From NCBI RefSeq assembly GCF_005519465.1, contig NZ_CP027858.1, positions 2,046,001-2,110,000 of the forward strand: a stretch of DNA of 64,000 bases, given 5' to 3'. A program made the position numbers and the translations under genes. Origin of the DNA: Streptomyces clavuligerus. Lineage in GTDB: Bacteria; Actinomycetota; Actinomycetes; Streptomycetales; Streptomycetaceae. Positions 28,576-40,209 of the stretch are shown in pieces. Each line of letters opens with the position of its first letter. Within the stretch, counting starts at the first letter, position 1. The notes under the pieces are model-generated. The model ran no database searches. It was not told the origin of the DNA and worked only from the letters and a program-made list of their open reading frames with translations.

Positions 28576-29754
28576 TCAGTAGACGGGCTTGTGCGGCTCG
28601 ATCTGGTTGACCCAGCCGATCACGCCACCGCCGACATGGACGGCGTCGGAGAAGCCCGCGGACTTCAGCACGGCGAGGACTTCCGCACTGCGGACACCCG
28701 TCTTGCAGTGCAGGACGATCTTCTTGTCCTGCGGCAGCCGCTCCAGCGCGGTGCCCATCAGGAACTCGTTCTTCGGGATCAGCGTCGCGCCCGGGATGGA
28801 GACGATCTCGTACTCGTTGACCTCACGGACATCGATGATCTCGATGTTCTCGTCCCCGTCGATCCACTCCTTGAGCTGCCGGGGAGTGATCGTGGAACCG
28901 GCCGCCGCCTGCTGGGCCTCCTCGGACACGACACCGCAGAACGCCTCGTAGTCGATCAGCTCGGTGACGGTCGGGTTCTCGCCGCAGACCGCGCAGTCGG
29001 GGTCCTTGCGCACCTTGACCTGGCGGTACTGCATCTCCAGGGCGTCGTAGATCATCAGCCGTCCCACCAGCGGGTCGCCGACGCCGGTGAGGACCTTGAT
29101 GGCCTCGGTGACCTGGATGGAGCCGATGGAGGCGCAGAGCACGCCGAGCACACCGCCCTCGGCGCAGCTCGGCACCATGCCCGGCGGCGGGGGCTCCGGG
29201 TAGAGGCAGCGGTAGCAGGGTCCGTACTCGGACCAGAAGACGGACGCCTGTCCGTCGAAGCGGTAGATCGAGCCCCAGACATAGGGCTTGTTCAGCAGCA
29301 CACAGGCGTCGTTGACCAGATAGCGGGTGGCGAAGTTGTCGGTGCCGTCCACGATCAGGTCGTACTGGCTGAAGATGTCCATCACGTTGTCGGCTTCGAG
29401 CCGGTCCGTGTGCAGGACGACATTGACGTACGGGTTGATCCCGAGGACCGAGTCCCGGGCGGACTCGGCCTTGGAGCGCCCGATGTCGGCCTGGCTGTGG
29501 ATGATCTGGCGCTGGAGGTTGGACTCGTCGACCTCGTCGAACTCCACGATGCCGAGGGTGCCGACACCCGCCGCGGCCAGGTACATCAGCGCGGGCGAGC
29601 CGAGGCCCCCGGCGCCCACACAGAGCACCTTGGCGTTCTTCAGCCGCTTCTGTCCGCCCATCCCGACATCCGGGATGATCAGGTGGCGGGAGTACCGGCG
29701 GACCTCGTCAACGGTGAGCTCATCTGCTGGCTCGACCAGGGGTGGCAGCGACAC
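28576..29754 (-). CDS. moeZ: Adenylyltransferase/sulfurtransferase MoeZ
   Basis: The product is 392 aa. The N-terminal E1-like domain has CVGAGGLGSPALMYLAAAG (about residues 45-63), the SNLQRQ adenylation motif, DGTDNFATR, and two CxxC zinc pairs (CYRC, CAVC). The C-terminal rhodanese domain has the active Cys in HCKTGVRS (about residue 360). MoeZ activates the C-terminus of ubiquitin-like sulfur carriers and loads sulfur for molybdopterin, thiocarboxylate-dependent cysteine biosynthesis and secondary metabolites. It has its own promoter 18-46 nt upstream of the start, and a GGAG ribosome site. Confidence 0.97.
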   Translation of the reverse strand: MSLPPLVEPADELTVDEVRRYSRHLIIPDVGMGGQKRLKNAKVLCVGAGGLGSPALMYLAAAGVGTLGIVEFDEVDESNLQRQIIHSQADIGRSKAESARDSVLGINPYVNVVLHTDRLEADNVMDIFSQYDLIVDGTDNFATRYLVNDACVLLNKPYVWGSIYRFDGQASVFWSEYGPCYRCLYPEPPPPGMVPSCAEGGVLGVLCASIGSIQVTEAIKVLTGVGDPLVGRLMIYDALEMQYRQVKVRKDPDCAVCGENPTVTELIDYEAFCGVVSEEAQQAAAGSTITPRQLKEWIDGDENIEIIDVREVNEYEIVSIPGATLIPKNEFLMGTALERLPQDKKIVLHCKTGVRSAEVLAVLKSAGFSDAVHVGGGVIGWVNQIEPHKPVY

Positions 29755-32277: not shown

Positions 32278-34062
32278 TCAGGACCGGTCGCCGACGGCCT
32301 CCTCGCGGCGCGTGCGCCGGGCACGGGCGAGCCGTGGATCGGGGCTCGGCACGGCGGCGAGCAGCTCCCGGGTATAAGGGTCGCGGGGAGCCCCGTACAC
32401 CTGCTCCACCGGGCCGTGTTCCACGATCCGGCCCTGCCGCATCACGGCGACCCGGTCGCTGATCTGCCGGACGACGGCGAGGTCGTGGGCGATGAAGACC
32501 AGGGTCAGGCCCAGCTCGCGGCGGAGCTGCCGGAGCAGGGCGACGATCTGCGCCTGGGTGGTCACGTCCAGCGCGGAGACCGGCTCGTCGCAGACGACGA
32601 CCCTCGGCCCGGCGACGAGGGCGCGGGCGATGCCGACGCGCTGCCGCTGGCCGCCGCTGAACTCGTGCGGATGGCTCCCGTGGCGGTCGGGGTCGAGTCC
32701 GACGCGCTCCAGCGCCTCCCCCACCCGCCGCCGGATCAGCCGCTCGTCGCGGTGTCCGGCCGCGCGCAGCGGGTCGGCGATGGACTCGCCGATGGAACGG
32801 CGGGGGTTGAGCGAGGCGACGGGGTCCTGGAACACCATCTGGAGCTCCCGGCGCCGGGGCCGCAGCGCCCGCTCGGACAGCGCGCCGATCTCGGTGCCGT
32901 CGTACCGGACCTCCCCGGAGGTGGGCCGGTCCAGCCGGACCAGCAGCCGGCCGAGCGTGGTCTTGCCGCTGCCGCTGCCGCCGACGATGCCCAGGCTCTC
33001 GCCCGCGGCGACGGTGAGGTCCACCCCGTCGAGCGCGACGGTCCGCTCCCGTCCCCGGCCGAACGTGCGGCGCAGCCCGGTCACTTCGAGCACGGGGGAC
33101 GCCGGGCCGCCCGGGGCGGGAGAGACCGAAGGGGTCAACGGGGCCAACGGGGTGTCGAGGCGGGGGACGGCCGCCAGCAGCGAGCGGGTGTAGGGGGCCG
33201 CGGGGGCGGTGAGGACGTCCGTCACGGGGCCGTGTTCGACCCTGCGGCCGTTCCGCATCACCAGGACCTCGTCCACGGTCCCGGCCGCGACCCCCACATC
33301 GTGGGTGACGAGCAGCAGCCCCGCCCCGGTCTCCTCGCGCAGCCCGTGCAGCAGATCCAGGATCTGCGCCTGGACGGTCACGTCGAGCGCCGTGGTCGGC
33401 TCGTCCGCGATCAGCAGCCGGGGGGCGCAGGCGAGCGCCATGGCGATGAGCACCCGCTGCCGCATCCCCCCGCTGAACTCGTGCGGCCGGGAGCGGGCCC
33501 GGCGGGCCGCGTCGGGGATGCCGACGCGGTCGAGCACCTCGACGGCGCGGGCGCGGGCCGCCCGCCGGGAGACCCGGTGGTGCACCCGGTACACCTCGGC
33601 GATCTGGCCGCCGACGGAGCAGTGGGGGTCGAGCGCGGAGAGCGGGTCCTGGAAGACCATGGCGGCGACACCGCCGCGCAGCTCCCGCAGTTCCCGGGGG
33701 CCCGCCGTCGTCACGTCGACGCCGCCGACCCGTACCGTCCCCGAGAGTCGCGCGCCCGTACCCCGGTGGAGTCCGAGCAGGGCGCCCGCGACGGTGCTCT
33801 TGCCGCTGCCGGACTCCCCCACGAGGGCGAGCGCGGCGCCCGGTGCCAGGGTGAACGACACTCCGTCGACGGCGCGGACGCCCTCGGCGGGGCCGGGGAA
33901 GCGGACCACCAGATCGCGGACGTCCACGAGGAGGTCGGGGACGACGGCCGGGGAAGCCGGAGCCACGGAGCCGGCGGGAGCGACAGGAGCGGAGGCAGGG
34001 GCCGGCGAGGCAGGAGCGGAGACAGAGGCCGGGGAGACGGCGGAAGCCACCGTGTCCGTCAT
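32278..34062 (-). CDS. Fused dipeptide/oligopeptide ABC transporter ATPase (DppD-DppF type)
   Basis: The product is 594 aa, two complete ABC domains in one chain. Domain 1: Walker A GESGSGKS (about residues 79-86), Q-loop VFQDP, signature FSGGMRQRV, Walker B LLIADEPTTALD. Domain 2: GGSGSGKTT, VFQDPVASLNP, FSGGQRQRV, VVVCDEPVSALD. Each is followed by the oligopeptide-transporter C-terminal region (PYTRSLLAAVP, PYTRELLAAVP). An Ala/Pro/Ser-rich N-terminal tail of about 40 residues precedes domain 1. It powers peptide import with the two permeases; its ATG overlaps the DppB stop by 4 nt. Confidence 0.95.
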   Translation of the reverse strand: MTDTVASAVSPASVSAPASPAPASAPVAPAGSVAPASPAVVPDLLVDVRDLVVRFPGPAEGVRAVDGVSFTLAPGAALALVGESGSGKSTVAGALLGLHRGTGARLSGTVRVGGVDVTTAGPRELRELRGGVAAMVFQDPLSALDPHCSVGGQIAEVYRVHHRVSRRAARARAVEVLDRVGIPDAARRARSRPHEFSGGMRQRVLIAMALACAPRLLIADEPTTALDVTVQAQILDLLHGLREETGAGLLLVTHDVGVAAGTVDEVLVMRNGRRVEHGPVTDVLTAPAAPYTRSLLAAVPRLDTPLAPLTPSVSPAPGGPASPVLEVTGLRRTFGRGRERTVALDGVDLTVAAGESLGIVGGSGSGKTTLGRLLVRLDRPTSGEVRYDGTEIGALSERALRPRRRELQMVFQDPVASLNPRRSIGESIADPLRAAGHRDERLIRRRVGEALERVGLDPDRHGSHPHEFSGGQRQRVGIARALVAGPRVVVCDEPVSALDVTTQAQIVALLRQLRRELGLTLVFIAHDLAVVRQISDRVAVMRQGRIVEHGPVEQVYGAPRDPYTRELLAAVPSPDPRLARARRTRREEAVGDRS

Positions 34063-35048
34063 GACAGGACCACCCTTCGGTCGGCGAGCGCGTACAGCAG
34101 GTCCGCGAGCAGATGGGCGAGCACGACCGCGGTGCCGATCACCAGCACCACGCCGACCACCACGGGCAGATCGATCACCTTCACCCCGTCGATCAGGGTC
34201 TTGCCCAGTCCGGGGATGCCGAACAGCGACTCGGTGAGCACCGCGCCGCCGAACATCGTGCCGACGTCGAGCGCGCTCAGCGCGATCACGGGCGGCGCGG
34301 CCCCGCGCAGCGCGTGCCGGGTGACGATCGCCCGTTCGCTCACGCCGTAGGCGCGGAAGGTCCGGATGTGGTCCTCGGCCAGGGTCTCCAGCGTCGAACT
34401 CCGGGTGAGCCTGGCGTACTTCGCGGACTCGAAGAGACCGAGGGTGAGCCAGGGCAGCAGCAGATTCCACGCCCACTGCTCGGGGTTCTCGGTGAACGGC
34501 ACATAGCTGGGGAAGGGCAGCCAGCGCAGATAGGCGCAGACGGCCATGAGCAGCAGCAGGCCGAGGATGAAGACCGGCATTCCGGTCGCGGCGAGCGTCA
34601 GCACCGTCAGGGCCCGCTCGGTGGGGCCGCCCCGGCGCAGGGCCGAGAGGAGCCCGACGCCGACGCCGACGACCAGCCAGATCACCAGCGCGCCCAGCGC
34701 CAGGGAGGCGGTGGCGGGCAGCCGTTCCACGATCAGCTCGGTGACCTGCTGATCGCTCTGGTACGAGAGGCCGAGGCAGGGCGCGGAGCAGTGCCTCACC
34801 CCCGTCCCGGTGCTGTAGTCGCGTCCGGTGACCAGCCCTTGGAGGAACTCGGCGTACCGCGTGAGCGCCGGGGCGTCGAGGCCGAGTGTCTCCCGGACCT
34901 GGGCGATCTGCTGCGGGGAGCAGCGTTCGCCGCAGGCGAGGCGCGCGGGGTCGCCGGGCGCGAGCTGGAACAGCCCGTGGACGAGGGCGGAGAGCGCCAG
35001 CAGCACCAGCAGGGCGCCGCCGAGCCGTTTGAGCAGGAAGAGAGTCAT
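34059..35048 (-). CDS. Peptide ABC transporter permease, DppB type
   Basis: The product is 329 aa with six predicted TM segments. It has the N-terminal DppB start (FLLKRLGGALLVLLALSALV), a periplasmic loop with four cysteines (CGERC and CSAPC) and the EAA-like cytoplasmic loop (EDHIRTFRAYGVSERAI, then HALRGAAPPVI). The segment TESLFGIPGLGKTLIDG is typical of BPD permease component 1. The cysteine-rich loop is uncommon and may form disulfides. Both ends overlap neighbours by 4 nt (ATGA), so the operon is translated in a coupled fashion. Confidence 0.93.
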   Translation of the reverse strand: MTLFLLKRLGGALLVLLALSALVHGLFQLAPGDPARLACGERCSPQQIAQVRETLGLDAPALTRYAEFLQGLVTGRDYSTGTGVRHCSAPCLGLSYQSDQQVTELIVERLPATASLALGALVIWLVVGVGVGLLSALRRGGPTERALTVLTLAATGMPVFILGLLLLMAVCAYLRWLPFPSYVPFTENPEQWAWNLLLPWLTLGLFESAKYARLTRSSTLETLAEDHIRTFRAYGVSERAIVTRHALRGAAPPVIALSALDVGTMFGGAVLTESLFGIPGLGKTLIDGVKVIDLPVVVGVVLVIGTAVVLAHLLADLLYALADRRVVLS

Positions 35049-36247
35049 GACGGGGCCTTCCTCGGGGAGGCCGGATCAGGGGACGGGGCCGGATCGGGGG
35101 ACACGGGCGCCGGGGACGCCGGGGAGGCCACCGACTCCGGGGACGCCGGCTTCTCCCGGCGGGTGCCGACCGCGAGCCTGCTCGCCTCCCGAGGGTCGAG
35201 GGCCGTCCGCACGGCCTCCCCGAGGACGGTGAACGCGAGGACGGTGACGAAGAGCAGCCCGGCGGGGAGCAGGACGTACATCGGGTCCGCCCGGAACCAG
35301 GTCTGCGCGGTGGACAGCATCTGCCCCCAGGACGGCGTGGGCGGCTTCACTCCGACGCCGAGGAACGAGAGCGACGCCTCGACCACGATGTTCACGGGCA
35401 GCAGCACCGCGGCATAGGTGATCACGGGTGCGGCCAGGGAGGGCAGCAGTTCCCGGCGGGCGACCCGCCAGGGGCCGTTTCCGCTCAGCCGGGCCGCCGC
35501 GACGAAGTCCCGCCGCCGCAGGCTCAGGGTCTGGGCCCGGACGATCCGTGCGGTGCCGCCCCAGCCGAACGCCCCGATCAGCAGGACGAGCAGCAGCGGA
35601 CGGGGGAAGTCCGGGGGGACGACGGCGGTGAGCGCGATCCCGACGACGAGCATCGGCAGCGCGACCAGGACATCGCCCACCCGGCTGAGCAGGGAGTCGA
35701 GCAGCGGGCCGCCCAGACCGGCGGCGAGGCCGACGGCGAGGCCGATCGCGATCTGGACCAGGGTCGCCCCGGCGGCCACCAGCAGCGAGATCCGGGCCCC
35801 GTACAGCAGCCGGGCGAGCAGATCGCGCCCGGTGCCGGGCTCCACGCCCAGCCAGTGATCGGCGCTGACCCCGCCCAGGGGGCCGACGGGGACCCCGCCG
35901 CGCGCCGAGTCGATCAGACCGTCGTGGTACGCGTAGGGGTCCTGGCCGGTCAGGGCGGTGATCAGCGGGGCGGCGAGGGCGAGCAGGACCAGCAGGGCGA
36001 GCACGCCCGCCGAGATCAGCGCCGAGGGGCGGCGGCCGAGCCCGCGCAGCACGGCCCGGGCGGTCCCGCGCCCGCTCGCGCCTCTCCCCCTCCTCCCTCT
36101 CCCGCCTCTCCCGCTCCCGTTCTCAGCGCTCGCGGCGCTGGTGTCCTTCGCGGTGTCCGGGGCGCCGGGCGAGGGGGCCGGCCCGGCCGCGGGCGGGCTC
36201 TCGCCCCCGCCCGCGGCCGGGCGTTCCGGTGCGGTGCCGATGGTCAC
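35045..36247 (-). CDS. Peptide ABC transporter permease, DppC type
   Basis: The product is 400 aa from a GTG overlapping the stop of the substrate-binding protein (GTGA). A Gly/Ala/Arg-rich cytosolic N-terminus (about 75 residues, basic) precedes the OppC_N segment, then HWLGVEPGTGRDLLARLLYGARISL, the hallmark of DppC proteins. The EAA loop is DFVAAARLSGNGPWRVARRELLPS. Six TM segments are predicted. A Pro/Ser-repeat C-terminal tail (SPESVASPASPAPVSPDP) follows. It forms the heterodimeric pore with DppB. Confidence 0.93.
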   Translation of the reverse strand: MTIGTAPERPAAGGGESPPAAGPAPSPGAPDTAKDTSAASAENGSGRGGRGRRGRGASGRGTARAVLRGLGRRPSALISAGVLALLVLLALAAPLITALTGQDPYAYHDGLIDSARGGVPVGPLGGVSADHWLGVEPGTGRDLLARLLYGARISLLVAAGATLVQIAIGLAVGLAAGLGGPLLDSLLSRVGDVLVALPMLVVGIALTAVVPPDFPRPLLLVLLIGAFGWGGTARIVRAQTLSLRRRDFVAAARLSGNGPWRVARRELLPSLAAPVITYAAVLLPVNIVVEASLSFLGVGVKPPTPSWGQMLSTAQTWFRADPMYVLLPAGLLFVTVLAFTVLGEAVRTALDPREASRLAVGTRREKPASPESVASPASPAPVSPDPAPSPDPASPRKAPS

Positions 36248-38007
36248 GCGACCGCGACCTGGGAGATGTCGAGCACACCGGTCCAGTCGCTGATGACGAT
36301 GTTCTTGACGTTCTTGCCGTAGAGCCGCTTGTAGACGGGGTGGAAGAGCGGAACGTCCAGTGCCAGTTCGCCGATCCGCCGGTCGAGCGCGCCCCAGCGC
36401 TTCGCCGCCGCGTCCAGGTCGGTCAGCTTGCTGATCTCGTCGATCTCCCGGTTCACCGCCGGGTCGTCGAGCTGAGCGTGGTTGTAGTTGGAGCCGTCGC
36501 GGACGATCTGCCGACCGTCGAAGATCGGCGCGAGGAAGGGCGCTCCGGAGGGCCAGTCGGCTCCCCAGCGGGAGAGGAAGAACCCGGGCGTCTTCGCCGC
36601 GTCCCAGCGCGCCTCGTTGAACGCGTTGTTCTCCAGGCCCTGGAGCTCGACCGTGATCCCGGCCTTCTTCAGGGCCTCCTGGACGGCGGTGGCGACCTCG
36701 GGGCTGGTCTGCCGGTTCTGCTCGGTGGAGTGCGTCAGCGTGATGGTGAGCTTCTCGTGCCCGGCCTCCTTGAGCAGCTTGCGCGCCTGCTCGGGGTCGC
36801 CGGTCGGACCCGCCGGGAAGTGGTCGTAGGGCGTGTGGCCGAACGCCTCCTTCTCCGGGAGGAAGGTGGTCGCGGGCTCGGCGAGCGCGGAGCCGCCCGC
36901 CGCGTTGACGACGCTGGTGCGGTTGATCGCGTACGCGATGGCCTGGCGCACCTTGATGTTGTCGAACGGCTTCACCTTCGGGTTGAAGGCGAGGTAGTTG
37001 ACGAAGCCGAAGCGGCCGGTGCCGACCCGGGCGGCCAGCTCCTTGTCGTCGCCGATCCGGGCCAGCTCGGCGGGGCCGAGGTTGGTGTCCGTGGTGACGG
37101 CGGAGGCGTCGGCTCCGGAGCCGGTGGACAGCCGCTGGTTGATGACGGCGGAGTCGAGCCCGGAGCGGACGTCGATGGTGTCGGGGTACGCCTTGCGCTC
37201 CGGGTCGGTCGTGGCGGACCAGTGGGGGTTGCGCTCCAGCAGCAGCCGCTCGCCGTCGCCCTCGTTCCTGACCACCTTGTACGGGCCGGAGGAGAGCGGG
37301 TGCTCCTCGTACCGGGTCCCGGTGTCCTTCGCCCGGGGCACCGGCGCGAACTGGGTCTGGGTGGCGAGGTAGGGGAACTCGCCCGCGGGCTTGCGCAGCT
37401 TGAAGACGATCGTCCGGTCGTCGGGGGTGACGATCGAGTCGAGCCCGTTCCCTCCCTTGTTCTCGCCGTCGGCCTTGCTCTTGTCCTTGCCCTTCCCCGT
37501 GAACGGGCCCTGGTAGGTGCTGCCGCCGATGAGCCAGTCCCGCAGATAGGGGGCGCCGCCGGACAGCTCGGCCGCGAACGAGCGCTCGACGCCGTACTTG
37601 ATGTCGGCCGAGGTGATCGGGGTCCCGTCCTCGTACTTCAGACCGGGCTTGAGGGTGAACGTCCACTCCGTGGCGTCGGCGTTGGGGCGTCCGGTGTCGG
37701 TGGCGAGGTCGGGCACGACCTCGGTACCGGCCGCGCCGTCCTCGCGGTTGCGGGTGGTGAGGGTGCGGAAGACGAGGGAGGGGACGTTGCCGCCGCCGGA
37801 GGTGTAGAGGCGGGCGGGGTCGAAGTCGGTCTGCGGCTCGGAGTTCAGCACGGTCAGGGTGCCGCCCCGGCGGGGCTCGCCGCCGCCGGAGCCATCGCCC
37901 CGGGCGTCGCCGTCCTGCGGCCCGGCGCACGCGGCGGCGCCCGTGACCACGACGAGAACGAGTGCTGCCGCTGCCGCGCGGCGGGATATGGCGGACCGTT
38001 GACGCAT
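36244..38007 (-). CDS. Peptide ABC transporter substrate-binding lipoprotein (SBP family 5)
   Basis: The product is 587 aa. The lipoprotein signal ends at GAAAC (Cys about residue 27). Family-5 features are PTSADIKYGVERSF (signature, about residues 145-158), PYLRDWLIGG, YNHAQLDDPAVNREID and the C-terminal PLFHPVYKRLYG. It is the first large gene of the operon, which continues with DppC, DppB and the fused ATPase. The transcript probably starts about 600 nt upstream at a leaderless leader-peptide ORF. Ligand specificity cannot be read from sequence; the Cys-rich leader suggests sulfur-containing peptides (inference). Confidence 0.94.
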   Translation of the reverse strand: MRQRSAISRRAAAAALVLVVVTGAAACAGPQDGDARGDGSGGGEPRRGGTLTVLNSEPQTDFDPARLYTSGGGNVPSLVFRTLTTRNREDGAAGTEVVPDLATDTGRPNADATEWTFTLKPGLKYEDGTPITSADIKYGVERSFAAELSGGAPYLRDWLIGGSTYQGPFTGKGKDKSKADGENKGGNGLDSIVTPDDRTIVFKLRKPAGEFPYLATQTQFAPVPRAKDTGTRYEEHPLSSGPYKVVRNEGDGERLLLERNPHWSATTDPERKAYPDTIDVRSGLDSAVINQRLSTGSGADASAVTTDTNLGPAELARIGDDKELAARVGTGRFGFVNYLAFNPKVKPFDNIKVRQAIAYAINRTSVVNAAGGSALAEPATTFLPEKEAFGHTPYDHFPAGPTGDPEQARKLLKEAGHEKLTITLTHSTEQNRQTSPEVATAVQEALKKAGITVELQGLENNAFNEARWDAAKTPGFFLSRWGADWPSGAPFLAPIFDGRQIVRDGSNYNHAQLDDPAVNREIDEISKLTDLDAAAKRWGALDRRIGELALDVPLFHPVYKRLYGKNVKNIVISDWTGVLDISQVAVA

Positions 38008-38110
38008 CGGAAGGGGACCTCTCCATCATGGAAGAAACAGACACAGCACGGAAAATTACGGAAACGCGAATAACGCGGATATGTCCATGCAGGCGACGGC
38101 AGGCTTCCAG

Positions 38111-38300
38111 GACGACGCCGGAGCACCGGGAAACACCGGAGACCCTCCGAGGCGCCGGGGACACCGAAGACGCCGGGGACACCGGGGATTCCTCGGGCAC
38201 CAAAGGCACCGGAAAGACCGGCGGCACCACGGACACCGGAGAGACCGGGGGTATCGGGATACCGGGGGGACCGGGGATATCGGGGACGCCGGAGCCACGG
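38111..38300. repeat. Degenerate GACACCGG(G/A) minisatellite in the opp leader
   Basis: About fifteen imperfect 9- to 12-bp units related to GGGGACACCGG follow one another. The plus strand would read as Gly-Asp/Glu-Thr repeats, but no ribosome site supports translation. The region lies within the presumed leader, between the leader peptide and the binding-protein gene. Confidence 0.6.
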
Positions 38301-38455
38301 AGACGGAGGCCGCCGAAACGGCCGAGCACCGAAAAAGCGGCACCGGAGAGGGAAACAACAGAAAGCCGCGCCTGCGGACCTGTATCGCCGGACGCGGTCG
38401 GCAGTCCTCGGGAACTCCCGTAATCCCCGGGAAACCTCAGAAGAAGCCGGGGGAG

Positions 38456-38483
38456 TTCAGAAGAAACGTCCCGCACGGGGACG
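38456..38483 (-). terminator. Attenuator-like hairpin in the opp leader
   Basis: On the minus strand CGTCCC (38483-38478) pairs with GGGACG (38472-38467) around a 5-nt loop, followed by TTTCTTCT. It begins about 24 nt after the stop codon of the Cys-Cys leader peptide, where an attenuator terminator is expected. The stem is short (6 bp), so strength is uncertain. Confidence 0.5.
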
Positions 38484-38506
38484 GACGACGCGCGCTCGGG
38501 CAGACG

Positions 38507-38602
38507 TCAGCAACAGTGGATATCGGCCACACTGTGCCCGGTCACGCCGATGAGCGCCAGCTCGAAAGCGGCGCGTTCGACGGAGGAAGGGCGGTGCGAC
38601 AT
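38507..38602 (-). CDS. Leaderless leader peptide ending Cys-Cys, upstream of the opp operon
   Basis: The ORF has 31 codons, ATG to TGA, starting MSHRPSSVERAAFELALIG and ending VADIHCC. There is no Shine-Dalgarno, but a promoter places the transcription start on or beside the A of the ATG, so it would be leaderless, a frequent mode in actinobacteria. Two cysteine codons directly before the stop, then a hairpin with a U-rich tail, match the layout of amino-acid-sensing leader peptides. It would make the downstream peptide importer responsive to charged tRNA-Cys. This role is inferred. Confidence 0.65.
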   Translation of the reverse strand: MSHRPSSVERAAFELALIGVTGHSVADIHCC

Positions 38603-38609
38603 GCCGAGA

Positions 38610-38638
38610 AATATGGATGAGCCGCCCGTCGATGTCAA
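38610..38638 (-). promoter_or_regulatory. Strong sigma-HrdB-like promoter of the opp leader
   Basis: On the minus strand there is a perfect -35 TTGACA (38638-38633), a 17-nt spacer and -10 CATATT (38615-38610). Seven bases separate the -10 from the ATG at 38602. Confidence 0.8.
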
Positions 38639-38739
38639 AGCCGTACGACCGGATACTGAGACGCCCGTCCCGGATTCACCATGGCCCCGGAAGCGGGAAA
38701 GACCGGGGGGCACCGAGGGCCGAAAAGCCCTCGCCGGAG

Positions 38740-40209
38740 TCAACTCCCCGGGTAGGGCCAGGGGTTGGGGCGGCATTCGATGTCGTTGATCTCCAGCGAT
38801 TTGGTCTGCTGCTGCATCACCGGAGCGAGCGCGCCCTCGGTGCCGCAGTTCACATGACCGTGACCCAGCCGGTGTCCCACCTCGTGGTTGATGAGCATCT
38901 GCCGGTAGGCGTGCATCGCCCGGGGGCCGTAGGTCTCCGAGCCGCGCGCCCAGCGGTAGGCGTTGATCATCACCCGGTCGGTGGCCGCGGAGTCGCAACT
39001 GACCTTGTCGATGGAGGTGTCGAGGCCGGATTTCGCGCACCAGACATCGGTGGTGCGGGGGCTGGCCAGGGTGATGACGAAGGAGGGCTGGCCCGACGAG
39101 ATCCGCTGGAAGGTCATCTCGCCCCGGCCGCCCCAGCTCCGCCCGTCGTTCAGCGTGCGGTGCACCGCACGGGCGAAGAGGGCCCCGTCCAGCGGCAGCC
39201 CCTTCTCGATGTCGACGCGGTAGCGGACGGCCTTGCCGCGCGCGCCGGGCACCGCGTCGCCCCCGGGCACCGCCTCGAAGGCGCCGTCGGCGGCGAGTTC
39301 CCGGTCGATGGGGTACTGCCGGGCCATCAGCTCGTCGTAGGTGGGCGGTTGGACCGCGTCACCCGCGGGTGACGGGTCCCGGCGGCTCTCGGGGAGGGAG
39401 CCGTCGGCGCCGCCGGTGTCCCCGTCGGCCCGGTCCTCCCCCGTCGCCGCGGGTCCGGCGTCCCGGTCGCGCTCCCGGTCCTGGGCGACCTGGCCCGAGA
39501 CGACGACGGCGAGCACGGCCGTCACGGCGGCCGCCGCGAGCCCGGTGAGCGTACGGCCCTTGGACCCGCTCCGCTGCCCGGGGAGCCGGCGGCCGGTCGA
39601 CGGCGGGGCGGACCCGTCCTCCGTCCCCCCGTCGTCCGCTCCGCCTCCGCCGGTGCCGGGCCCCGCGTACGGCGCGGGCGCGCCGGGCGCGTCGAACGCC
39701 TCGACGAACTCACGGCGCGGACCGGGTATGCGGGAGTCCCGTGCGTGCTCGGCCGCCCCGTGGAGCGCGGGCTCACGCGCCGGTTCCCGGTGCTCCGCCG
39801 GGTACGGCCGGGCCGCCGCCTCCGGAGCGGGGTGTGCCGCCCCCTGGGAGGGGGCCTGCGCGGACGGGTACGGTCCGGACGGCGCGGGCGCGCCCCAGGC
39901 GCCTCCGGACTCGCGCTGCTCGGGGTGGCCGCCCCGGGTCCGCGGCGGCCCCTGGTCCACCGGACCATGACCGGACCCAGGCGCTCCGCCCACCGGGCCG
40001 TGACCTGCCGCGTGCGGCCCCGACCACGCTCCGGACCCGACGGACACGGGAGGCAGCGCGCCGGTGTCATATCCGCCCGTGGCGCGCGTGTCCCCACCGC
40101 CGGAAGGGCCGGAAGGGCCGGAACCACCGGCGGAGAGGGGAGCCCCCGCGGGTACGGAGTCCACCGCGGCGGCCTTGGGCGCGGGCCCTTTGCGGCTGTG
40201 TCGTCCCAC
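38740..40209 (-). CDS. DUF3152 membrane-anchored zinc metalloprotease-like protein
   Basis: The product is 489 aa. A long Gly/Pro/Ala-rich, probably cytosolic N-terminus (about 210 residues) precedes one TM helix (LTGLAAAAVTAVLAVVVSG, about 222-240). An extracellular DUF3152 domain has the metal motif NHEVGHRLGHGH (about 443-454), an extended HExxHxxGHxH site, and cysteines in VWCAKSG, VSCDS, VNCGTE and IECRPNPWPYPG. The same family (Rv3207c) lies next to moeZ in mycobacteria. The substrate is unknown. It is 9 nt downstream of the alpha/beta hydrolase. Confidence 0.92.
   Translation of the reverse strand: MGRHSRKGPAPKAAAVDSVPAGAPLSAGGSGPSGPSGGGDTRATGGYDTGALPPVSVGSGAWSGPHAAGHGPVGGAPGSGHGPVDQGPPRTRGGHPEQRESGGAWGAPAPSGPYPSAQAPSQGAAHPAPEAAARPYPAEHREPAREPALHGAAEHARDSRIPGPRREFVEAFDAPGAPAPYAGPGTGGGGADDGGTEDGSAPPSTGRRLPGQRSGSKGRTLTGLAAAAVTAVLAVVVSGQVAQDRERDRDAGPAATGEDRADGDTGGADGSLPESRRDPSPAGDAVQPPTYDELMARQYPIDRELAADGAFEAVPGGDAVPGARGKAVRYRVDIEKGLPLDGALFARAVHRTLNDGRSWGGRGEMTFQRISSGQPSFVITLASPRTTDVWCAKSGLDTSIDKVSCDSAATDRVMINAYRWARGSETYGPRAMHAYRQMLINHEVGHRLGHGHVNCGTEGALAPVMQQQTKSLEINDIECRPNPWPYPGS

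Follow-up and report, generated by a model that had tools for sequence, protein, structure and literature searches.

A predicted leaderless cysteine leader peptide ahead of a peptide importer operon in Streptomyces clavuligerus and other Streptomyces

Organization of the leader and importer locus

The window (the whole stretch of 64,000 nucleotides from Streptomyces clavuligerus that we analysed) carries on its minus strand a short Open Reading Frame (ORF) with its own promoter, followed by the genes of an ABC importer. The main features are as follows.

38610–38638, minus strand: promoter (TTGACA at 38638–38633, 17-nt spacer, CATATT at 38615–38610)
38507–38602, minus strand: leader peptide ORF, 31 codons plus TGA (NF042937 match; conserved residues with synonymous third-base change)
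38513–38515, minus strand: codon 30, UGU, the Cys codon that is conserved; TGT in all 135 of 135 leaders
38510–38512, minus strand: second Cys codon (codon 31), TGC, not conserved; CC in 15 of 135 leaders
38155–38292, no strand: degenerate array of 9-bp repeats (15.4 copies, 62% matches), which makes the leader longer in this genome
38018–38024, minus strand: Shine-Dalgarno-like GGAGAGG of the binding-protein gene, from the sequence
36244–38007, minus strand: family 5 solute-binding lipoprotein of a peptide importer (SBP_bac_5; PF00496, 256 bits; closest solved chain 2wok)
35045–36247, minus strand: permease of OppC/DppC type; start codon provisional
34059–35048, minus strand: permease of OppB/DppB type
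32278–34062, minus strand: double ABC ATPase, a fusion of OppD-OppF type; start provisional

The ORF opens at the ATG at 38602 and ends HCC-TGA, with the TGA at 38509–38507, and encodes the peptide MSHRPSSVERAAFELALIGVTGHSVADIHCC. It scores 60.3 bits against NCBIfam NF042937 (Ms4533A family Cys-rich leader peptide; curated cut-off 31), with residues 1–31 aligned on profile positions 1–30, and on this similarity we assign it to the Ms4533A leader peptide family. The promoter is the only sigma-70-like site in 37900–38760, where shuffled sequences gave 0.1 on average (50 shuffles). ORF and promoter are both beyond chance. No Rfam covariance model of a leader or riboswitch family matched 37900–38760 up to E = 1.

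The ATG lies 7 nt past the CATATT. A similar arrangement, a TTGAC box and a -10-like xAxxxT hexamer that ends 8 nt 5' of the ATG, is found in 134 of 151 leaders, and 103 of the 151 have exactly CATATT at that position. In the available text of a Streptomyces lividans study (PMC8079986), the distance from -10 element to transcription start is 6.3 nt in average and 5–7 nt in 88.7% of cases. Compared with these distances, the spacing in the window makes a start at or beside the ATG likely, and the transcript is predicted to be leaderless.

Downstream of the leader, the binding protein, the two permeases and the double ATPase follow in this order on the same strand and form a complete peptide-type importer. 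The closest solved chain to the binding protein, 2wok, is an oligopeptide-binding protein from the clavulanic acid cluster; this resemblance says nothing specific about cysteine, and that the importer brings in Cys-containing peptides is a guess. A few genes past the importer, on the same strand, is a MoeZ-type adenylyltransferase/sulfurtransferase gene (28576–29754, minus strand; 750.8 bits, cut-off 647). MoeZ in mycobacteria serves sulfur-carrier cysteine biosynthesis, so the neighbourhood may be sulfur-linked. Upstream of the leader is a gene for a DUF3152 protein (PF11350; 38740–40209, minus strand) with a HEVGH-like motif seen by eye, and such a gene precedes the leader in 65 of 71 Streptomyces leader loci by tblastn match.

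The distance from the leader stop codon to the binding-protein gene is 499 nt in the window, compared with 135–313 nt in the other compared Streptomyces loci with an intact gene and 379 nt in one further locus (L113). The repeat unit of the array in this spacer is about 9 bp, CCGGGGACA.

Coupling of leader and importer across genomes

Among 150 Streptomyces genomes, 71 contain a leader over the NF042937 cut-off and 71 contain the binding protein at E up to 1e-150; 70 genomes hold both over threshold and 78 hold neither at these thresholds. Two borderline genomes also hold both. One of them (G087, leader only by threshold) has a broken, 78%-identical fragment of the binding-protein gene beside the leader in an assembly that is 78% complete, and the other (G095, gene only by threshold) has an intact gene and a leader at 25.6 bits. 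Eight of the 78 double-negative genomes were inspected more closely and contain only paralogues with at most 40% identity. In a class-wide sample of 394 genomes, 36 exceed the NF042937 cut-off, and only a few genera hold any match (5 of 137).

For named orthologues, the best 80 of 195 binding-protein matches were kept, and a leader stands before all of these best 80, in 77 by pattern and in the last three by eye (L123 and L164, with Asn replacing Ile, and L134, with a lengthened C-terminus). Close named relatives are Streptomyces inusitatus and S. jumonjinensis. In one count of the loci read, seven duplicate or distant matches (L002–L008) were omitted, and L035 had no leader by pattern. The binding-protein gene starts 229–596 nt past the leader ATG in 70 of the 71 loci read first, and is broken in the remaining one (L076). 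Outside this family, one genome from another family of the order (L006) likewise has such a leader before a binding protein of 51% identity.

From the above, the observation behind the original prediction, which was made from the sequence of the window, stands, and its interpretation is supported in part. The promoter and the 31-codon ORF with its Cys-Cys end are real, the ORF being kept at orthologous loci, and the complete peptide importer after it is borne out. The tie between a leaderless cysteine leader and the importer operon is supported by the family score, the genome coupling, the 80 orthologues and the promoter spacing, with the leaderless start itself predicted.

A single invariant UGU codon in the leader peptide

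Codon counts were made on 135 distinct Streptomyces leader DNA sequences (L067 left out). Five residues never vary, namely G, V, V, D and the penultimate C, and several of them have free third bases (GGC 89 and GGT 46; GTG 101, GTA 16 and GTC 18). Such synonymous change points to selection on the translated peptide and indicates that the leader peptide is probably under purifying selection.

The original prediction took the two adjacent Cys codons before the stop codon as the key element. However, the last two residues are CR in 107 leaders, CC in 15, CS in 11, CL in one and CH in one, and CR is also the ending in the two named relatives that stand closest (L107 and L108). The terminal CC was rejected as the key; the fixed part is the penultimate Cys codon, UGU. 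The search proposed with that prediction, for the ORF before other SBP-5 genes with conserved CC codons and synonymous change elsewhere, found the leader and the synonymous change, but not the CC. Most leaders contain few cysteines (one in 38, two in 79, three in 17 and four in one), and an adjacent pair is confined to the 15 CC leaders, without the run of regulatory codons seen in classical attenuators.

The codon choice differs between the Cys positions. At the other common Cys position of the leaders, TGC is used in 84 cases and TGT in 6, compared with TGT throughout at the penultimate position (Fisher p 3e-55, a statistic that ignores shared ancestry). L035, L123, L134, L164 and the class-scan loci lie outside the 135 and have TGT at their Cys codon where it was seen. 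We also read 13 of 15 loci from another family of the class, which from the name of the peptide family are presumably relatives of the mycobacteria; by pattern, L097 and L098 yielded no leader. In these loci, TGT encodes the Cys that follows AD-[IV]-x or AD-V in 13 of 13, and TGC encodes an earlier Cys (in five loci) and a very last Cys (in two). A 4-bp hairpin GACA...TGTC is found at the leader end, and the TGT choice in Streptomyces could be in part because of this hairpin.

In L134 the stop codon after Cys-Arg is lost, which adds about ten residues, and L035 is seemingly alike by eye. This lost-stop variant should alter the position of the ribosome.

RNA structure downstream of the leader

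In order to describe the RNA 3' of the leader, the Streptomyces loci were split by their peptide into the LCV group (41 loci) and the rest (41 loci, including the window). The following structures in the window, all on the minus strand, are discussed below.

38484–38511: candidate hairpin over leader end and stop codon, GCTGACG/CGTCGTC, with one mismatch in the window
38491–38501: post-stop segment, candidate antiterminator strand, able to pair with the conserved hairpin's 5' arm (alignment A1)
38467–38483: 6-bp hairpin CGTCCC-CGTGC-GGGACG, at chance level as a terminator
38366–38397: conserved terminator-like hairpin CCGCGTCC...GGCGCGG with tail CTTTCTGTT; pattern in 25 of 41 loci

The 6-bp hairpin was the terminator of the original prediction. 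It is present, beginning 23 nt past the leader stop codon (38483–38467) and followed by the tail TTTCTTCT, but 37900–38760 contains 2 terminator-like sites against 1.5 +/- 1.2 in shuffles, and we rejected it as a terminator. A looser scan of one Streptomyces group found a hairpin with a T tail in 38 of 41 real leaders and in 30 of 41 shuffled ones. Folding of the 166-nt stretch from the Cys codons to past the conserved hairpin was no better than that of shuffles (z -0.71). Loss of the CC codons and the hairpin in close relatives had been thought to speak against the leader as a whole; the claims on both do fail, and the leader survives.

A different hairpin is conserved. In the non-LCV group, 25 of 41 loci contain by pattern a nearly invariant hairpin with the consensus GCCGCGCC-CGGGYG...CGYCC-GCA-GGCGCGGC and a short T-rich tail, which gives a weak U tract; the pattern is absent from the other 16. 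Alignment A1 was built from 24 of the 25 loci (L102 dropped as a duplicate of L062). The helix is paired in 94.2% of cells, and its covariation is not above shuffles (118 of 500) in these 24 loci.

The 5' arm and loop of this hairpin can also pair with the RNA just past the leader stop codon. This alternative pairing was spotted by eye after anchoring on the hairpin and then counted, with fresh loci as the check. It is kept in 95.4% of the cells of A1, and its covariation score is 0.231, compared with 0.145 +/- 0.013 in shuffles (0 of 500 reach it) and 0.095 in the best slid register. Doubly changed cells number 9 against 1.7 +/- 1.2 in shuffles. The covariation is carried by two of the ten pairs, and neither the count of doubly changed pairs (165 of 500 shuffles) nor that of pair types (53 of 500) is above shuffles. 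In the fresh loci, 181 of 216 cells are paired in the 24 of 30 loci that were counted, and the pair that varies most holds in 17 of 24, where shuffles give 13.4 (50 of 2000). RNAalifold on whole spacers (41 + 39 loci) found little common structure. Taken from these alignments, an antiterminator pairing that would exclude the hairpin is predicted in this group of 24 genomes.

For the hairpin that spans the leader end and the stop codon, 86.3% of cells over 24 genomes are paired, and the covariation is weak (45 of 500 shuffles reach it). With this covariation and no effect at equilibrium, it was rejected as an off-state device.

The window's own switch is weak and diverged, and 9-bp repeats make its spacer longer. 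Two of its ten antiterminator pairs fail in the A1 register, the antiterminator duplex is not better than shuffles (z -0.53), and the completed hairpin is weak in every ribosome state (0.04, 0.32 and 0.09).

Predicted effect of the ribosome position

The ribosome was modelled with a footprint that ends 13 nt past the start of the A site. The post-stop segment would be free while the ribosome waits at the UGU, and its first part would be covered once the ribosome is on the stop codon. Before the 3' arm of the hairpin is made, the mean probability of the alternative pairing is 0.83 with the ribosome at the UGU and 0.49 with the ribosome on the stop codon, and it is higher at the UGU in 23 of 24 loci. 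The difference of 0.34 falls to 0.05 when the post-stop segment is shuffled. After release of the ribosome, the predicted pairing is again 0.83, equal to the stalled state. Equilibrium folding alone therefore gives no off state once the ribosome has left, and the model needs folding speed or the stop-codon hairpin to turn the operon off.

Proposed mechanism

The ORF is very likely a real cis-regulatory leader. By analogy with its family it is likely to be cysteine-responsive, and the chance that it acts by antitermination in the window's group lies between about even and likely. Taken together, we consider ribosome-mediated, cysteine-responsive attenuation of the peptide importer by a cis-acting leader peptide to be the probable mechanism. 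The conserved leader and its coupling to the importer, the invariant UGU, the conserved hairpin and, in other genomes of the group, the covarying alternative pairing are shown by the counts above. For the 5' end, translation, the cysteine signal and termination, and for the window's copy working like the others, we infer the following course of events.

Transcription would start at the leader ATG, and a ribosome would begin translation at the very 5' end. When cysteinyl-tRNA is short, the ribosome would wait with the conserved UGU in its A site and leave 38501–38491 free to form the alternative pairing with the hairpin's 5' arm, about 110 nt downstream. The hairpin could then not close, and RNA polymerase would continue into the importer operon. 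When cysteine is ample, the ribosome would reach the stop codon two codons later and cover the post-stop RNA, the hairpin at 38397–38366 would close, and most transcription would end. The number of Cys codons, one or two in most leaders, is low for codon counting and weakens the model. In the original prediction, the layout was that of tRNA-sensing attenuation; the leader and its coupling to the importer are retained here, the CC codons and the 6-bp hairpin are given up, and the cysteine response is plausible by family.

Translational attenuation, in which leader translation decides whether the binding-protein gene has its ribosome-binding site and start codon hidden in RNA structure, is suggested by the LCV group and has been described for mycobacterial cysteine genes (2026; PMC13236596, from its available text). 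In LCV loci the RNA past the stop codon hardly varies, and the predicted structure buries both the ribosome-binding site and the start codon. With high probability, RNAalifold places GACGACC and GTCTC opposite the Shine-Dalgarno region in this group, and CGCGTCGCGA opposite the start codon. Alignment A2 was built from 26 of the 41 LCV loci, with 15 divergent ones removed by hand, and 98.6% of the Shine-Dalgarno helix cells pair, with G-U replacements. However, the covariation of these helices is not above shuffles (500 of 500), no Shine-Dalgarno-sequestering helix was identified in the window's own sequence, and for 40 of 41 loci in each of the two groups the Shine-Dalgarno region has a predicted accessibility near 0.15, alike for a stalled ribosome, for one on the stop codon and after its departure. 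A simple switch through Shine-Dalgarno access was rejected, as ribosome positions make no difference to it, and we regard translational attenuation in general as unlikely. The 41 LCV loci have a different downstream structure, in which no antitermination switch was established. In five of them (L012, L013, L016, L020 and L083) the leader-end sequence recurs in the spacer as a second, GAGTCGCTGACGG-like copy.

Improbable to a higher degree is Rho-dependent control, in which a waiting ribosome shields the leader RNA and Rho stops transcription in the long untranslated spacer once the ribosome has finished. Seliverstov and others raised an idea of this type for the mycobacterial cys leaders without terminators (PMC1262725, in the part available). 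The spacer length (499 nt in the window, mostly 135–313 nt elsewhere), its C-richness by eye and the weak U tracts past the conserved hairpin agree with it, but it leaves the conserved hairpin and the covarying alternative pairing unexplained. A peptide acting in trans, for example by binding a metal or a protein, with mere co-expression as the reason for its position before the importer, would suit a conservation that extends beyond the Cys codon and is common to another actinobacterial family. The strict synteny and the RNA-level conservation of UGU-NGC-UGA argue instead for action in cis, and make this a very remote alternative. Finally, GC-rich DNA often contains short ORFs, and the 6-bp hairpin alone is at chance level; a chance ORF beside the importer promoter is nevertheless in practice refuted by conservation, given the family score, the genome coupling and the synonymous pattern, and its probability is close to nil.

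Within the preferred mechanism of cysteine-responsive attenuation, the leader may be a nascent-chain-assisted sensor and not a simple counter of Cys codons, although we hold this extension to be doubtful. The core L-x-x-V...V-A-D-I/V-x-C, common to Streptomyces and a distant actinobacterial family, would slow the ribosome at the single invariant UGU, which is the rarer of the two synonyms, and this one codon could then report the supply of cysteinyl-tRNA. One lineage would have this sensor in front of a peptide importer and another would have it in front of a sulfate importer, and part of Streptomyces would combine it with a covarying antitermination switch.

Comparison with known leader peptides

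The nearest known systems are the Ms4533A family Cys-rich leader peptides and the leaderless short ORFs with polycysteine ends in mycobacteria, which Canestrari et al. reportedly described in 2020. They are alike in the peptide family, the predicted leaderless start, the C-terminal Cys and the position at the head of an importer operon. In contrast to the peptide-binding protein here, the leader precedes a sulfate-binding protein, over the cut-off, in the three loci of the other family that were tested out of 13 (L082, L104 and L105), and this context lies outside the definition of the HMM. The Streptomyces leaders also differ in that they usually have one terminal Cys followed by Arg and no Cys run, and in that part of the loci carry a conserved hairpin and an alternative pairing 3' of the ORF. 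The work of Canestrari et al. on the cysteine-responsive mycobacterial ORFs is cited in PMC9094748, PMC9031893 and PMC13236596, as far as their accessible text goes.

Classical attenuators, such as those of trp and leuS of Streptomyces (PMC1262725 and PMC8079986, available parts), are similar in having a leader ORF, alternative pairings and stall codons near the stop codon. However, here the amino acid is cysteine and not Trp or Leu, there is a single conserved Cys codon, and the operon encodes a transporter and not biosynthesis or a tRNA ligase. The accessible text on S. lividans names 8 leader peptides, for Leu, Trp, Ala, Ile, Met and Thr, and none for Cys (PMC8079986). The cys leaders of Mycobacterium and Propionibacterium (PMC1262725 and PMC4633059, available parts) are likewise short ORFs that end in Cys codons before sulfur genes. 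The 2005 survey lists them without terminators in its accessible part (PMC1262725), and conserved terminator hairpins are not reported in the available text of either paper, whereas 25 of 41 loci of one group have them here.

Our literature search, outside which most subscription journals lie, returned nothing on this Streptomyces leader before a peptide importer, and a text search of the accessible parts of Streptomyces transcript-boundary papers found leader peptides or cysteine unmentioned. Control by a Cys leader is known from mycobacteria; what may tentatively be called new here is the different importer together with a conserved RNA switch.

Implications

The alternative pairing would supply a cysteine leader with parts that the 2005 survey, in its available text, did not find in the mycobacterial cys leaders (PMC1262725). 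The strict UGU at one codon, set against TGC elsewhere, offers a clean test of whether codon identity, the nascent peptide or both matter. The importer would obtain a named, conserved regulator, and peptide uptake in Streptomyces would be linked to the supply of cysteine.
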